A stretch of DNA of 64,000 nt. Origin: Pedobacter yulinensis (GTDB lineage: Bacteria > Bacteroidota > Bacteroidia > Sphingobacteriales > Sphingobacteriaceae). Position 1 is the stretch's first letter, and each line of letters opens with the position of its first letter. This document shows positions 40,485 to 43,186 of the stretch, one piece after another. A program made the translations under genes and the position numbers. The stretch is from NCBI RefSeq assembly GCF_003029735.1, contig NZ_KZ686272.1:62001-126000 (forward strand), written 5' to 3'. The notes below the pieces were generated by a model. That model made no database searches. It was not told where the DNA came from and was given only the letters and a program-made list of their open reading frames with translations.

Positions 40485-41336
40485 TTAAACTATGATTTTT
40501 TCGATCGGCAGGACAAGGATACCTTCGGCGCCGGCGGCTTTCAGGCTATTGATCTTTTCCCAGAAATCTTCTTCGGCGATCACCGAATGTACGGCCACCC
40601 AATTTTCCTCAAATAAGGGGACAATGGTCGGGCTTTTCACGCCGGGCAGTAAGGCCACAACCTTTTCCAGGTTATATCTTTCGACATTCAGCACCACGTA
40701 TTTGTTCGATTTTGCTTTCAGCACCGAACGGATGCGCTGAAGCAGTTCGGCTACTTCGGGCGCATCGTAGATGGTCTTATTGGCGATCAGCACAGCTTCC
40801 GAACGCATCACGTCTGCGAAGGGTTTTAGCCCGTTGTTTTTCAAGGTTCCCCCAGTCGAGACGATATCGCAGATGGCGTCACTTAAGCCCAGGCCCGGGC
40901 CAATCTCGACCGAACCGCTGATGACCCTGATCTGCGCTTCCACGCCTTTAGATTTAAGAAAATTGTCAAGAATAACAGGATAGGACGTGGCAATCGCTTT
41001 GCCGTTCAGTTCTTCAATACTGGTGTAGCTTTCGGTAGCGGGTACTGCAATCTTCAGCGTGCATTTACCGAAGCCGAGTTTCTGCAGGTAGTGTACGTCA
41101 GCGCCGGTTTCCTCAATCACATTTTCGCCTACAATACCGAGATCGGCAATGCCGTCCTGAACATACTCAGGGATATCATCATCACGCAGGAACAGGATTT
41201 CCAGCGGGAAATTGGTAACTGAAGAAATGAGTGAGCTTTTGTAGTTTTCGAATGAAAGACCGCAGGTTTTTAAGATCTCTACTGATTTTTCATTAAGTCT
41301 GCCAGATTTTTGTATGGCAATTTTGAGTGTCTTCAC
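40485..41336 (-). CDS. hisG: ATP phosphoribosyltransferase, long form
   Basis: A 283-residue enzyme for the first, committed step of histidine synthesis. N-terminal two-lobe catalytic domain (LKIAIQKSGRL, DLGIVGEN, DIVSTGGTL for PRPP binding) and a C-terminal regulatory domain (about 205-283) show the long, histidine-feedback-controlled form, so HisZ is not needed. Start is GTG at 41336, no better ATG nearby. First enzyme gene of the operon, behind a histidine leader peptide. Confidence 0.95.
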   Translation of the reverse strand: MKTLKIAIQKSGRLNEKSVEILKTCGLSFENYKSSLISSVTNFPLEILFLRDDDIPEYVQDGIADLGIVGENVIEETGADVHYLQKLGFGKCTLKIAVPATESYTSIEELNGKAIATSYPVILDNFLKSKGVEAQIRVISGSVEIGPGLGLSDAICDIVSTGGTLKNNGLKPFADVMRSEAVLIANKTIYDAPEVAELLQRIRSVLKAKSNKYVVLNVERYNLEKVVALLPGVKSPTIVPLFEENWVAVHSVIAEEDFWEKINSLKAAGAEGILVLPIEKIIV

Positions 41337-41374
41337 TAAGTGTTGATTAAAGATGTATACAAGAAAATATTTTT

Positions 41375-41398
41375 AAAAACAGTTTTGACGTACAAAAC
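41375..41398 (-). terminator. possible his attenuator terminator hairpin
   Basis: On the reverse strand GTTTTG-TACGT-CAAAAC (41398 to 41382) is a 6-bp hairpin followed by TGTTTTT. It lies between the leader peptide stop and hisG, where an attenuator terminator belongs. The stem is A+T-rich and short, so its strength is uncertain. Confidence 0.45.
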
Positions 41399-41406
41399 AT
41401 AACACA

Positions 41407-41463
41407 TTACATCGCCTGGCGGCGATGGTGGAAATGTAAGTGGTGGTTCAAAACAAAGTTCAT
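41407..41463 (-). CDS. hisL: histidine leader peptide
   Basis: An 18-residue open frame upstream of hisG, read on the reverse strand: ATG at 41461-41463, TAA at 41407-41409, peptide MNFVLNHHLHFHHRRQAM. Five of seven consecutive residues are histidine (HHLHFHH). Such a run sits in the leader of histidine operons controlled by transcription attenuation: the ribosome stalls when charged histidyl-tRNA is short. It begins 36 bases after a strong -7 promoter element and is followed by a G+C hairpin (41410-41427) and a T-tract hairpin. Sequence evidence is direct; the mechanism is inferred. Confidence 0.85.
   Translation of the reverse strand: MNFVLNHHLHFHHRRQAM
41410..41427 (-). other. G+C hairpin within the his leader
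   Basis: CATCGCC-TGGC-GGCGATG is a perfect 7-bp stem with a 4-base loop, overlapping the last His, Arg, Arg, Gln, Ala, Met codons of the leader peptide. In attenuators such a pause hairpin overlaps or directly follows the control codons. Next to it CACTTACAT (His-Leu-His codons) can pair with ATGTAATGTG around the stop codon with one bulge, an alternative structure. Confidence 0.55.
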
Positions 41464-41498
41464 AAATTCCTGCTGTCTCTATCAATGTCTAGCTGCGG

Positions 41499-41532
41499 CA
41501 AATATAACCAAACGCGGTAGAAATCAAAAAAA
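41499..41532 (-). promoter_or_regulatory. promoter of the his operon
   Basis: On the reverse strand TTTTTTTG (41532-41525) lies 18 bases before TATATTTG (41506-41499), matching the Bacteroidota -33 TTTG and -7 TAnnTTTG elements with normal spacing. Transcription should start near 41490, about 27 bases before the leader peptide ATG. Confidence 0.7.
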
Positions 41533-41591: not shown

Positions 41592-41599
41592 TATCTTTG
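41592..41599 (+). promoter_or_regulatory. Bacteroidota -7 element for the L,D-transpeptidase
   Basis: TATCTTTG fits TAnnTTTG and ends just before the coding frame, overlapping the TTG at 41597 and 6 bp before the TTG at 41606. The message is probably leaderless. No -33 element found at the usual distance. Confidence 0.45.
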
Positions 41600-41605
41600 C
41601 CTGTT

Positions 41606-43186
41606 TTGAAGAGAAATTTACGCTTAATCATTCCTTTTTTCCTGTGTCTCAGTGCCTGCGGTTGGTTTAAACCGGTTCCTGAGGTTGGCTCGGTCCTGGC
41701 AGAGCACCTGGATAACAAACTGTACAAAAAATTTGATACGGCTGCTTACATCCCCGTATTCAGACGGGTTGCCGACAGTTTGGCCAGTCATTTTTCAAAT
41801 CCGCAAACCATTCGTTCGCTGTATGCAGCACAAGAGTATGAGCCACATCTTGTCCAGTCGTTTTATGCTACCGGCGGCCTGGATTCCTTGCGCGATTACC
41901 TGAAAAGAGCCGATCTGCACGGACTGGATCCAAAGATCTTCAGGCTCAAACAAATTGAAGCCCTGCTTGCCCAGCTGAATGCCAATCGCTTTTCGTCAAT
42001 CGAAGAGGTGTACCCCGTTGTGGCTGCGCTTGAACTGAATGCTGCCGAAGGATTGCTCAAGTACAGCAACTTTCTGAAATTCGGAGCAGTAAACCCGCGC
42101 AAGCTGCTGAGCCGTTTTTATATCCGCATTGGCAGGCCAGACAGTACGTTTATGAAGCAGGTACTGCAGACCGACGATTTGCTGAAAACGCTGGAATCTG
42201 TGCAGCCGGCCAGCGAGGCCTATAAACAGATGCAGGCTGCCCTGGCCGCTTACCGCCGGTCGGGTGCCGATCAGCAAACTCTCCGCACGCTGAAGATCAA
42301 CATGGAGCGGATGCGCTGGCAAATGCCGGCAAACGAAGATGATGAAATGGTGCTTGTCAACATTCCTGATTTCTCGCTGACCTGGTTCGATAAAACCGAT
42401 ACGCTTGCTTTTATGAAAGTTTGCGTTGGCGGACCACGCGAAAAGGCATACGAAGAAAAGATGAAGCGTTACCTGCAGACCGGCAGCCTTGATGACAAAC
42501 CAAGAAACCATGAGACGCCTTTGCTCGCTAGCCGCATCAACTCCATTCAGGCTAATCCCATCTGGAATATCCCGGTCAGTATCGCACAGAGCGAGATCTA
42601 TTACCAGGCATTAAAAGATCCCTACTACCTGTCGAACAGCAACATCAAAGTGTACCGCAAAGGTGTGGAGATCGGCGAACCAGATACCATTCAGTGGAGC
42701 CGGTACCCGAGAAACAAGCTGCCTTATCAGTTCAAGCAGGGCTCTGGAGAGGGCAATGCGTTGGGCAAATTCAAGTTTATTTTTAACAACGGCTCCAGCA
42801 TTTACCTGCACGATACGAACAACAAATATGGGTTCAAACTGCGCAACCGGGCCATTAGCCACGGCTGCGTACGCATTGAAAAGCCGCTGGAATTTGCCGA
42901 ACTGCTGGTTAGAAGCAAATCACAGTATGACCTGCTGCGCATGGAAGTGGACCTGCCGCCGCTGGATACCACTAAAATGCCGATCTTCAGGAGAAAACAG
43001 GAACGCAAGCGCGATACAGTAAACAGCTACCAGCTGCGGCCCAAATGGTTTGGCACCAAAAAACCGGTTTACCTGCTCATAAGCTACCAGACAGCCTGGC
43101 CACAGAACGGGCGCATCGAGTTTAGAACAGATGTATACGGGCATGATGAGATTTTGTGGCGGTCGCTCAAAAAATACGCAGCTTAA
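41606..43186 (+). CDS. L,D-transpeptidase (YkuD), lipoprotein
   Basis: A protein of about 526 residues with a TTG start (41606 preferred; 41597 also possible, but inside the promoter). N-terminal signal peptide with lipobox LSAC, then a large helical scaffold domain, then a YkuD domain whose active-site SHGCVRI holds catalytic Cys (about residue 421). L,D-transpeptidases make 3-3 crosslinks or attach proteins to peptidoglycan. The long scaffold recalls the YcbB/LdtD group. It is divergent from the his operon. Confidence 0.88.
   Translation: MKRNLRLIIPFFLCLSACGWFKPVPEVGSVLAEHLDNKLYKKFDTAAYIPVFRRVADSLASHFSNPQTIRSLYAAQEYEPHLVQSFYATGGLDSLRDYLKRADLHGLDPKIFRLKQIEALLAQLNANRFSSIEEVYPVVAALELNAAEGLLKYSNFLKFGAVNPRKLLSRFYIRIGRPDSTFMKQVLQTDDLLKTLESVQPASEAYKQMQAALAAYRRSGADQQTLRTLKINMERMRWQMPANEDDEMVLVNIPDFSLTWFDKTDTLAFMKVCVGGPREKAYEEKMKRYLQTGSLDDKPRNHETPLLASRINSIQANPIWNIPVSIAQSEIYYQALKDPYYLSNSNIKVYRKGVEIGEPDTIQWSRYPRNKLPYQFKQGSGEGNALGKFKFIFNNGSSIYLHDTNNKYGFKLRNRAISHGCVRIEKPLEFAELLVRSKSQYDLLRMEVDLPPLDTTKMPIFRRKQERKRDTVNSYQLRPKWFGTKKPVYLLISYQTAWPQNGRIEFRTDVYGHDEILWRSLKKYAA

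Follow-up and report, generated by a model that had tools for sequence, protein, structure and literature searches.

Among the closest described systems is translational attenuation of ermC and cat, in which ribosome events on a leader open reading frame (ORF), brought about by antibiotic stalling, make the start of the downstream gene accessible. The nearest translational case is the LEU element found upstream of leuA in Actinobacteria (PMC1262725). According to Naville and Gautheret 2010 (PMC2965389), demonstrated leader-peptide systems were confined to Proteobacteria and Actinobacteria, besides ermC and their own new cases in Firmicutes. In a 2021 transcriptome of Flavobacterium psychrophilum (PMC9723704), the regions ahead of amino-acid operons gave "strong clues" of attenuation by leader peptides, and a structured 5′ element upstream of hisG was reported that is conserved in Flavobacteriaceae. 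Short ORFs in long 5′ untranslated regions are mentioned in the map of Bacteroides thetaiotaomicron (PMC7366714), a review on his genes across the superphylum refers to attenuation a single time, in connection with enterobacteria (PMC8305728), and our literature search found no paper joining Pedobacter, leader peptides and attenuation. Here we analyze a stretch of 64,000 nucleotides (nt) from Pedobacter yulinensis (contig NZ_KZ686272.1, positions 62,001 to 126,000; hereafter the window), in which a short His-rich ORF lies ahead of hisG, together with the corresponding loci of its relatives. On balance, the patterns detected favor the reading that in Sphingobacteriaceae this ORF is a histidine-sensing leader peptide gene controlling the initiation of hisG translation, and not intrinsic termination. 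The parts of this reading documented by sequence comparison are the His-codon leader, two hairpins (P2 and P3), a helix over the start region (P1), the lack of a terminator, and a weak hisG start. Positions of these features in the window are as follows.

41525-41532, minus strand: promoter element of the -33 type, TTTTTTTG, identified from sequence
41499-41506, minus strand: promoter -7 element, TATATTTG, of the TAnnTTTG type, identified from sequence
41461-41494, minus strand: 5′ strand of P1, from the leader 5′ untranslated region through the leader ATG, identified from duplex energy and a genus-swap test
41407-41463, minus strand: leader ORF, MNFVLNHHLHFHHRRQAM and stop, 18 codons from ATG to TAA, conserved in relatives
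41448-41454, minus strand: S0, GTTTTGA, ahead of the His codons and complementary to the P3 3′ arm TCAAAAC, partially supported and seen in the minimum free energy fold of the window
41410-41427, minus strand: P2, the G+C hairpin CATCGCC-GCCA-GGCGATG within the HHR codons and the end of the ORF, identified from covariation
41382-41398, minus strand: P3, hairpin GTTTTG-TACGT-CAAAAC followed by TGTTTTTAAAA, a his-specific motif identified from covariation
41334-41371, minus strand: 3′ strand of P1, the stretch before hisG, reaching the GTG start codon in the window, identified from fold, duplex energy and sliding windows
40485-41336, minus strand: hisG (ATP phosphoribosyltransferase), GTG start, first gene of the his operon, identified as an ORF with HisG relatives by protein search

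The two promoter elements are spaced by 18 nt, and the distance from the leader stop to hisG is 70 nt. The leader codons are ATG AAC TTT GTT TTG AAC CAC CAC TTA CAT TTC CAC CAT CGC CGC CAG GCG ATG TAA, with His at codons 7, 8, 10, 12, and 13 (positions 41440-41445, 41434-41436, and 41425-41430). In six frames this is the sole place in the window with at least five His per seven residues, and 2 of 20 Markov-shuffled windows contained any such place; His composition on its own is not overwhelming. Rather, the leader is judged to be real because it lies directly before hisG and because each of the 59 Pedobacter hisG loci has a short ORF containing a run of His, these loci being part of a collection of upstream regions obtained through HisG protein searches for the host genus, Pedobacter, and family, Sphingobacteriaceae. 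The Pedobacter leaders have a core of LNHHLHLHHR and a variable C-terminus. A His-rich leader was also found in about 58 of the 63 hisG loci from other genera of the family; for most of the few remaining loci, no position could be assigned to the hisG start or to the leader. In 116 of 120 family loci the 110 nt ahead of the leader ATG contained a TAnnTTTG element. Beyond the family, a His-rich leader was present in 62 of 72 loci, and of the 35 further Bacteroidia families sampled, 29 were represented among these 62. Divergent leaders carry runs of 4-10 His, His codons are kept in almost every genus, and in 79 loci codon 13 closes the last conserved His pair, which puts the end of this pair approximately one ribosome footprint from the leader start.

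These patterns bear on an earlier sequence-only reading of the locus, which described an 18-codon His-rich frame between a well-spaced promoter and hisG, took it for the leader of a his operon, and suggested comparison with related Sphingobacteriaceae. The ORF does occupy exactly 41407-41463, its promoter elements are confirmed, the leader is conserved in genus, family, and class far above chance, and among the relatives the His codons are conserved and the hairpins covary. The accompanying view that such leaders belong mostly to Proteobacteria was too narrow, terminator-type his leaders being widespread in Bacteroidia. An Rfam scan of the window leader and 20 relatives matched no family at the gathering-score threshold, the proteobacterial his leader included, and a relaxed Rfam search at the leader returned chance matches only; a generic sigma-70 and terminator scan, which does not cover the Bacteroidota promoter type, gave no match at the leader. 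There were some divergent layouts within the family. Genus g36 (L096, L097) has a leader with approximately ten His (MITKQHIALHHHTHLHHGHHHHCA), an ATG hisG start, and a longer spacer with neither the P3 motif nor a terminator. In g35 (L094, L095, L155) and g46 (L109-L111) hisG is positioned 106-170 nt past the leader stop and the placed start is often ATG, with g35 having a TTG located where other genera start hisG; in these two genera hisG may have been extended or a small ORF inserted.

All loci were searched for terminators with one scan, which required a hairpin of -10 kcal/mol or lower plus a U-tract. Outside Sphingobacteriaceae, 55 of 62 leader-bearing hisG loci had a strong intrinsic terminator, often AAGGCTTACC...GGTAAGCCTT and then a T-run, and for 22 of 26 families the region of the leader stop found a better partner in the 5′ arm of its own terminator than in terminators of other families, so that by their sequences these leaders represent classical attenuation. 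Terminator-type his leaders occurred in 26 of the 35 sampled Bacteroidia families (L240-L299, L049-L060), where the antiterminator and the leader stop codon overlap, and no Rfam family was matched in the 15 other-family his leader loci tested. Among his leaders of Sphingobacteriaceae, a terminator-grade hairpin was found in 0 of 117, and P3 reached -2.9 kcal/mol in the window, -5.0 at best in Pedobacter, and -6.5 at best in the family. That the family is able to use terminators follows from trpE, our internal control, where a terminator was present in 30 of 30 loci (-10.4 to -21.9 kcal/mol), with a Trp-rich leader in most genomes (L330-L359); the his leader is without one. The window genome has upstream of trpE (L360, G000:C1:806000-806460) a leader with WQW (MISNSHTWQWPGNPKKRCALCV) and a hairpin, AAGCCCGACG...CGTCGGGCTT-TTT, and this strong terminator, AAGCCCGACG...CGTCGGGCTTTTT, makes the locus a classical Trp attenuator. 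Regions upstream of ilvD, considered as a second comparison, had few leaders and were uninformative. In the window genome the region upstream of ilvD (L314) contains, some 120-145 nt from the gene, a hairpin resembling a terminator (-14.8 kcal/mol, T6) with a short ORF upstream, possibly a further attenuator.

Instead of the terminator and antiterminator pair of the attenuation that the sequence-only reading had proposed, the family has a conserved helix, P1, over the hisG start. In fixed windows the real P1 duplex had -11.3 kcal/mol compared with -7.2 when genera were swapped, and the real one was stronger in 17 of 17 genera; the same swap test gave no signal of this type for hisG of other families (11 of 26) or at trpE within the family (11 of 27). 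Sliding windows located the leader side at -24 to +6 of the leader ATG and the hisG side at -31 to -2 of the hisG start, with no pairing signal in hisG codons 3-17, and thus the partner of the stretch before hisG is the leader start region and not the His codons. Compensatory pairs in P1 include AATCAGGAACC/GGTCTGATT, AATCGG/CCGATT, AGTACAA/TTGTACT, and TCAACAAA/TTTGTTGA. Of the features that define a leader-peptide translational attenuator, the locus has a start-region helix conserved by covariation and a leader ORF with His codons conserved in the family, and we infer its dependence on the histidine signal. In the window P1 has -17.1 kcal/mol and extends to the GTG, and the fold of the whole leader RNA (-37.8 kcal/mol, z -2.6) has the hisG start inside the helix. 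In the family 107 of 118 loci start hisG with TTG or GTG, compared with ATG in 69 of 72 loci elsewhere. Since the start-region helix and the weak start codon both occur where the terminator is missing, they suggest that what is controlled is the initiation of translation. The bacteria concerned do not use Shine-Dalgarno sequences, and control of initiation in them is poorly understood.

Covariation in the hairpins was analyzed in an alignment of 59 Sphingobacteriaceae sequences. For P2 and P3 together, 97.7% of cells were paired, compared with 88.5 ± 0.8 in shuffles, and the covariation score was 0.301 compared with 0.147. In P2 98.6% of cells were paired, with compensations from GC to AU, and in P3 all 5 tested pairs had changed on both sides. 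The usual sequence of P3 across genera is GTTTC-TACGT-GAAAC, and most Pedobacter have GTTTTG-TAC[GT]T-CAAAAC; a U-tract is missing after P3 in most genera, and TTTTTT follows it in part of Pedobacter. Of the hairpins described in the sequence-only reading, the G+C hairpin is present at 41410-41427, and the T-tract hairpin likewise exists, at 41382-41398, and covaries, but its supposed role as a terminator is not borne out at -2.9 kcal/mol and with no reliable U-tract in the family. The complementarity of CACTTACAT and ATGTAATGTG is also real, but does not make an antiterminator, since this pairing extends P2 and leaves P3 untouched. That reading was correct about sensing and, as far as Sphingobacteriaceae are concerned, probably mistaken about the terminator.

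The possibility that P3 is a generic terminator motif used genome-wide was rejected, the exact motif occurring once in the genome, at this leader; the family version is nearly always single-copy and before hisG. S0 and the 3′ arm of P3 are complementary in many genera and covary in part (69.5% paired compared with 59.8 ± 1.3, a partial support), and this pairing, S0:P3′, would compete with P3. As a universal switch S0:P3′ was only partly supported and it does not form part of our claim. Another candidate, in which the P3 5′ arm hides the hisG start (TGTTTT/AAAACA), was set aside, since the protein dictates the sequence on the hisG side (KT codons), which lacks covariation. A C-rich stretch (CCCCG, CTCCG, TTTCCG) occurs approximately 8-12 nt past P3 in several genera (e.g. 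L098, L095, L106).

If the leader does control hisG initiation, ample histidyl-tRNA would allow ribosomes to clear the leader, whereupon P1 would close and the hisG start would be hidden (OFF). When histidyl-tRNA is scarce, ribosomes would stall in the His codons and either queue onto the leader start or sterically block P1, and with P1 held open and P3 formed instead of S0:P3′, hisG would be translated (ON). Given where the last conserved His pair ends, there would be room for a queued ribosome on the leader start, and failure to translate hisG could possibly lower operon mRNA by polarity. For this putative ribosome trigger, the energy needed to open the region of the hisG start was calculated from folds of RNA with ribosome footprints masked. 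In the window the cost was 8.4 kcal/mol for ribosome-free RNA and 4.3-4.8 kcal/mol with a ribosome on the leader start, either alone or queued behind a stalled one, so that such a ribosome eases opening by 3-4 kcal/mol, and the direction was alike in most genera, with exceptions in g47 and g46.

Several observations weigh against control of hisG initiation by the leader. One ribosome stalled at a His codon gave an opening cost of 8.0-8.4 compared with 8.4 kcal/mol, and because a single stall, such as one at the first His codon, barely alters this cost the trigger would require queuing or steric effects outside the model. P1 covers the start of the leader itself, so that its closure would also stop sensing. 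S0:P3′ is missing in genus g45 and some Pedobacter, genera g36, g44, g46, and g35 deviate in start codon or layout, and the strong sequence conservation of P3 is left unexplained by a translational model alone. A more tentative proposal, to which we give somewhat less than an even chance, is that the family inherited a his attenuator of the terminator type and converted it to translational control, the ribosome-loading regions of leader and hisG pairing mutually so that a leader ribosome held by histidine shortage would itself keep hisG open, with trp keeping the terminator mode.

An alternative explanation, unlikely but the one that best survives, is that the leader governs termination by Rho, or cleavage by an RNase, in the stretch separating it from hisG, with P1, P2, and P3 shaping access. 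Translation of tnaC controls Rho-dependent termination in E. coli. The absence of an intrinsic terminator from the family and the C-containing stretch past P3 in many genera (CCCCG, CTCCG) would be consistent with such a mechanism, as would the Rho-type control proposed by Seliverstov et al. 2005 (PMC1262725) for Actinobacteria leader peptides lacking a terminator, but it predicts neither a P1 with the hisG start region nor the switch to TTG/GTG. We consider it improbable that P3 and the U-rich stretch after it are a weak A+U-rich terminator for classical ribosome-mediated transcription attenuation, even though there is a His leader, this mode is ancestral elsewhere in the class, TTTTTT follows P3 in part of Pedobacter, and S0:P3′ and P3 would exclude each other. 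The stability of P3 in the window (just -2.9 kcal/mol) and the 0 of 117 family loci at -10 or lower argue otherwise, as does the lack of a U-tract after P3 in most genera of a family whose trpE has strong terminators; moreover a stalled ribosome would mask S0 and favor P3, which is the wrong sign if P3 terminates. It is still more doubtful that P1, P2, and P3 form a site for a trans-acting factor (a protein, tRNA, or small ligand), with the leader peptide secondary or a remnant: the P3 sequence and its loop (UACGU) are conserved and his-specific, and the LEU element of Actinobacteria has been interpreted in this way (PMC1262725), but retention of His codons in almost every genus, in runs of 4-10, would be unexpected for a remnant. 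That the ORF is an untranslated chance reading of a conserved CAT/CAC-rich RNA hairpin is very improbable, since although P2 overlaps the HHR codons and conservation is in part structural, His codons outside P2 are conserved with the frame and start, other families have His runs in unrelated sequence, and Trp codons of the trpE leader follow the same logic.

As to the surroundings of the locus, the ORFs downstream of hisG look like hisD, hisC, and hisB, and the divergent neighbor of hisG (41597-43186, plus strand) has the SHGCVR motif of L,D-transpeptidases, recognized by eye.

Compared with known systems, the Sphingobacteriaceae locus resembles the his leader and attenuator of E. coli and Salmonella in its candidate alternative RNA pairings, but is without an intrinsic terminator and has a conserved helix over the hisG start region. 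The likeness to ermC and cat lies in the exposure of a downstream start by leader ribosomes, and the difference in that those systems respond to antibiotic stalling rather than to a shortage of charged tRNA. Attenuators of trpE, present alongside the his leader in Sphingobacteriaceae genomes, likewise have a short leader carrying codons for the cognate amino acid, but with strong terminators and no helix like P1. The LEU element (PMC1262725) has, as here, a leader ORF with cognate codons in a run, no obvious terminator, and a base stem overlapping the downstream start region; there the codon run pairs with the Shine-Dalgarno box, whereas in Sphingobacteriaceae the leader start region pairs and no Shine-Dalgarno sequence takes part. 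The F. psychrophilum element (PMC9723704) shares class, gene, and proposed leader-peptide attenuation with the Pedobacter locus, but its mention is brief and concerns transcription attenuation, and does not cover Sphingobacteriaceae, terminator loss, or a start-region helix. The Bacteroidota histidine leader as such has a precedent, and it is the change of output module in one family that appears to be new. Histidine leader peptides are widespread in Bacteroidia and not chiefly a proteobacterial device, and they offer a rare natural comparison of a His-codon sensor before hisG coupled to a terminator in most families, whereas in a single family, whose trp is still terminator-based, it occurs with a helix over the start region and a weak start codon. 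This contrast opens to direct test the question of how transcriptional attenuation could give way to translational control.
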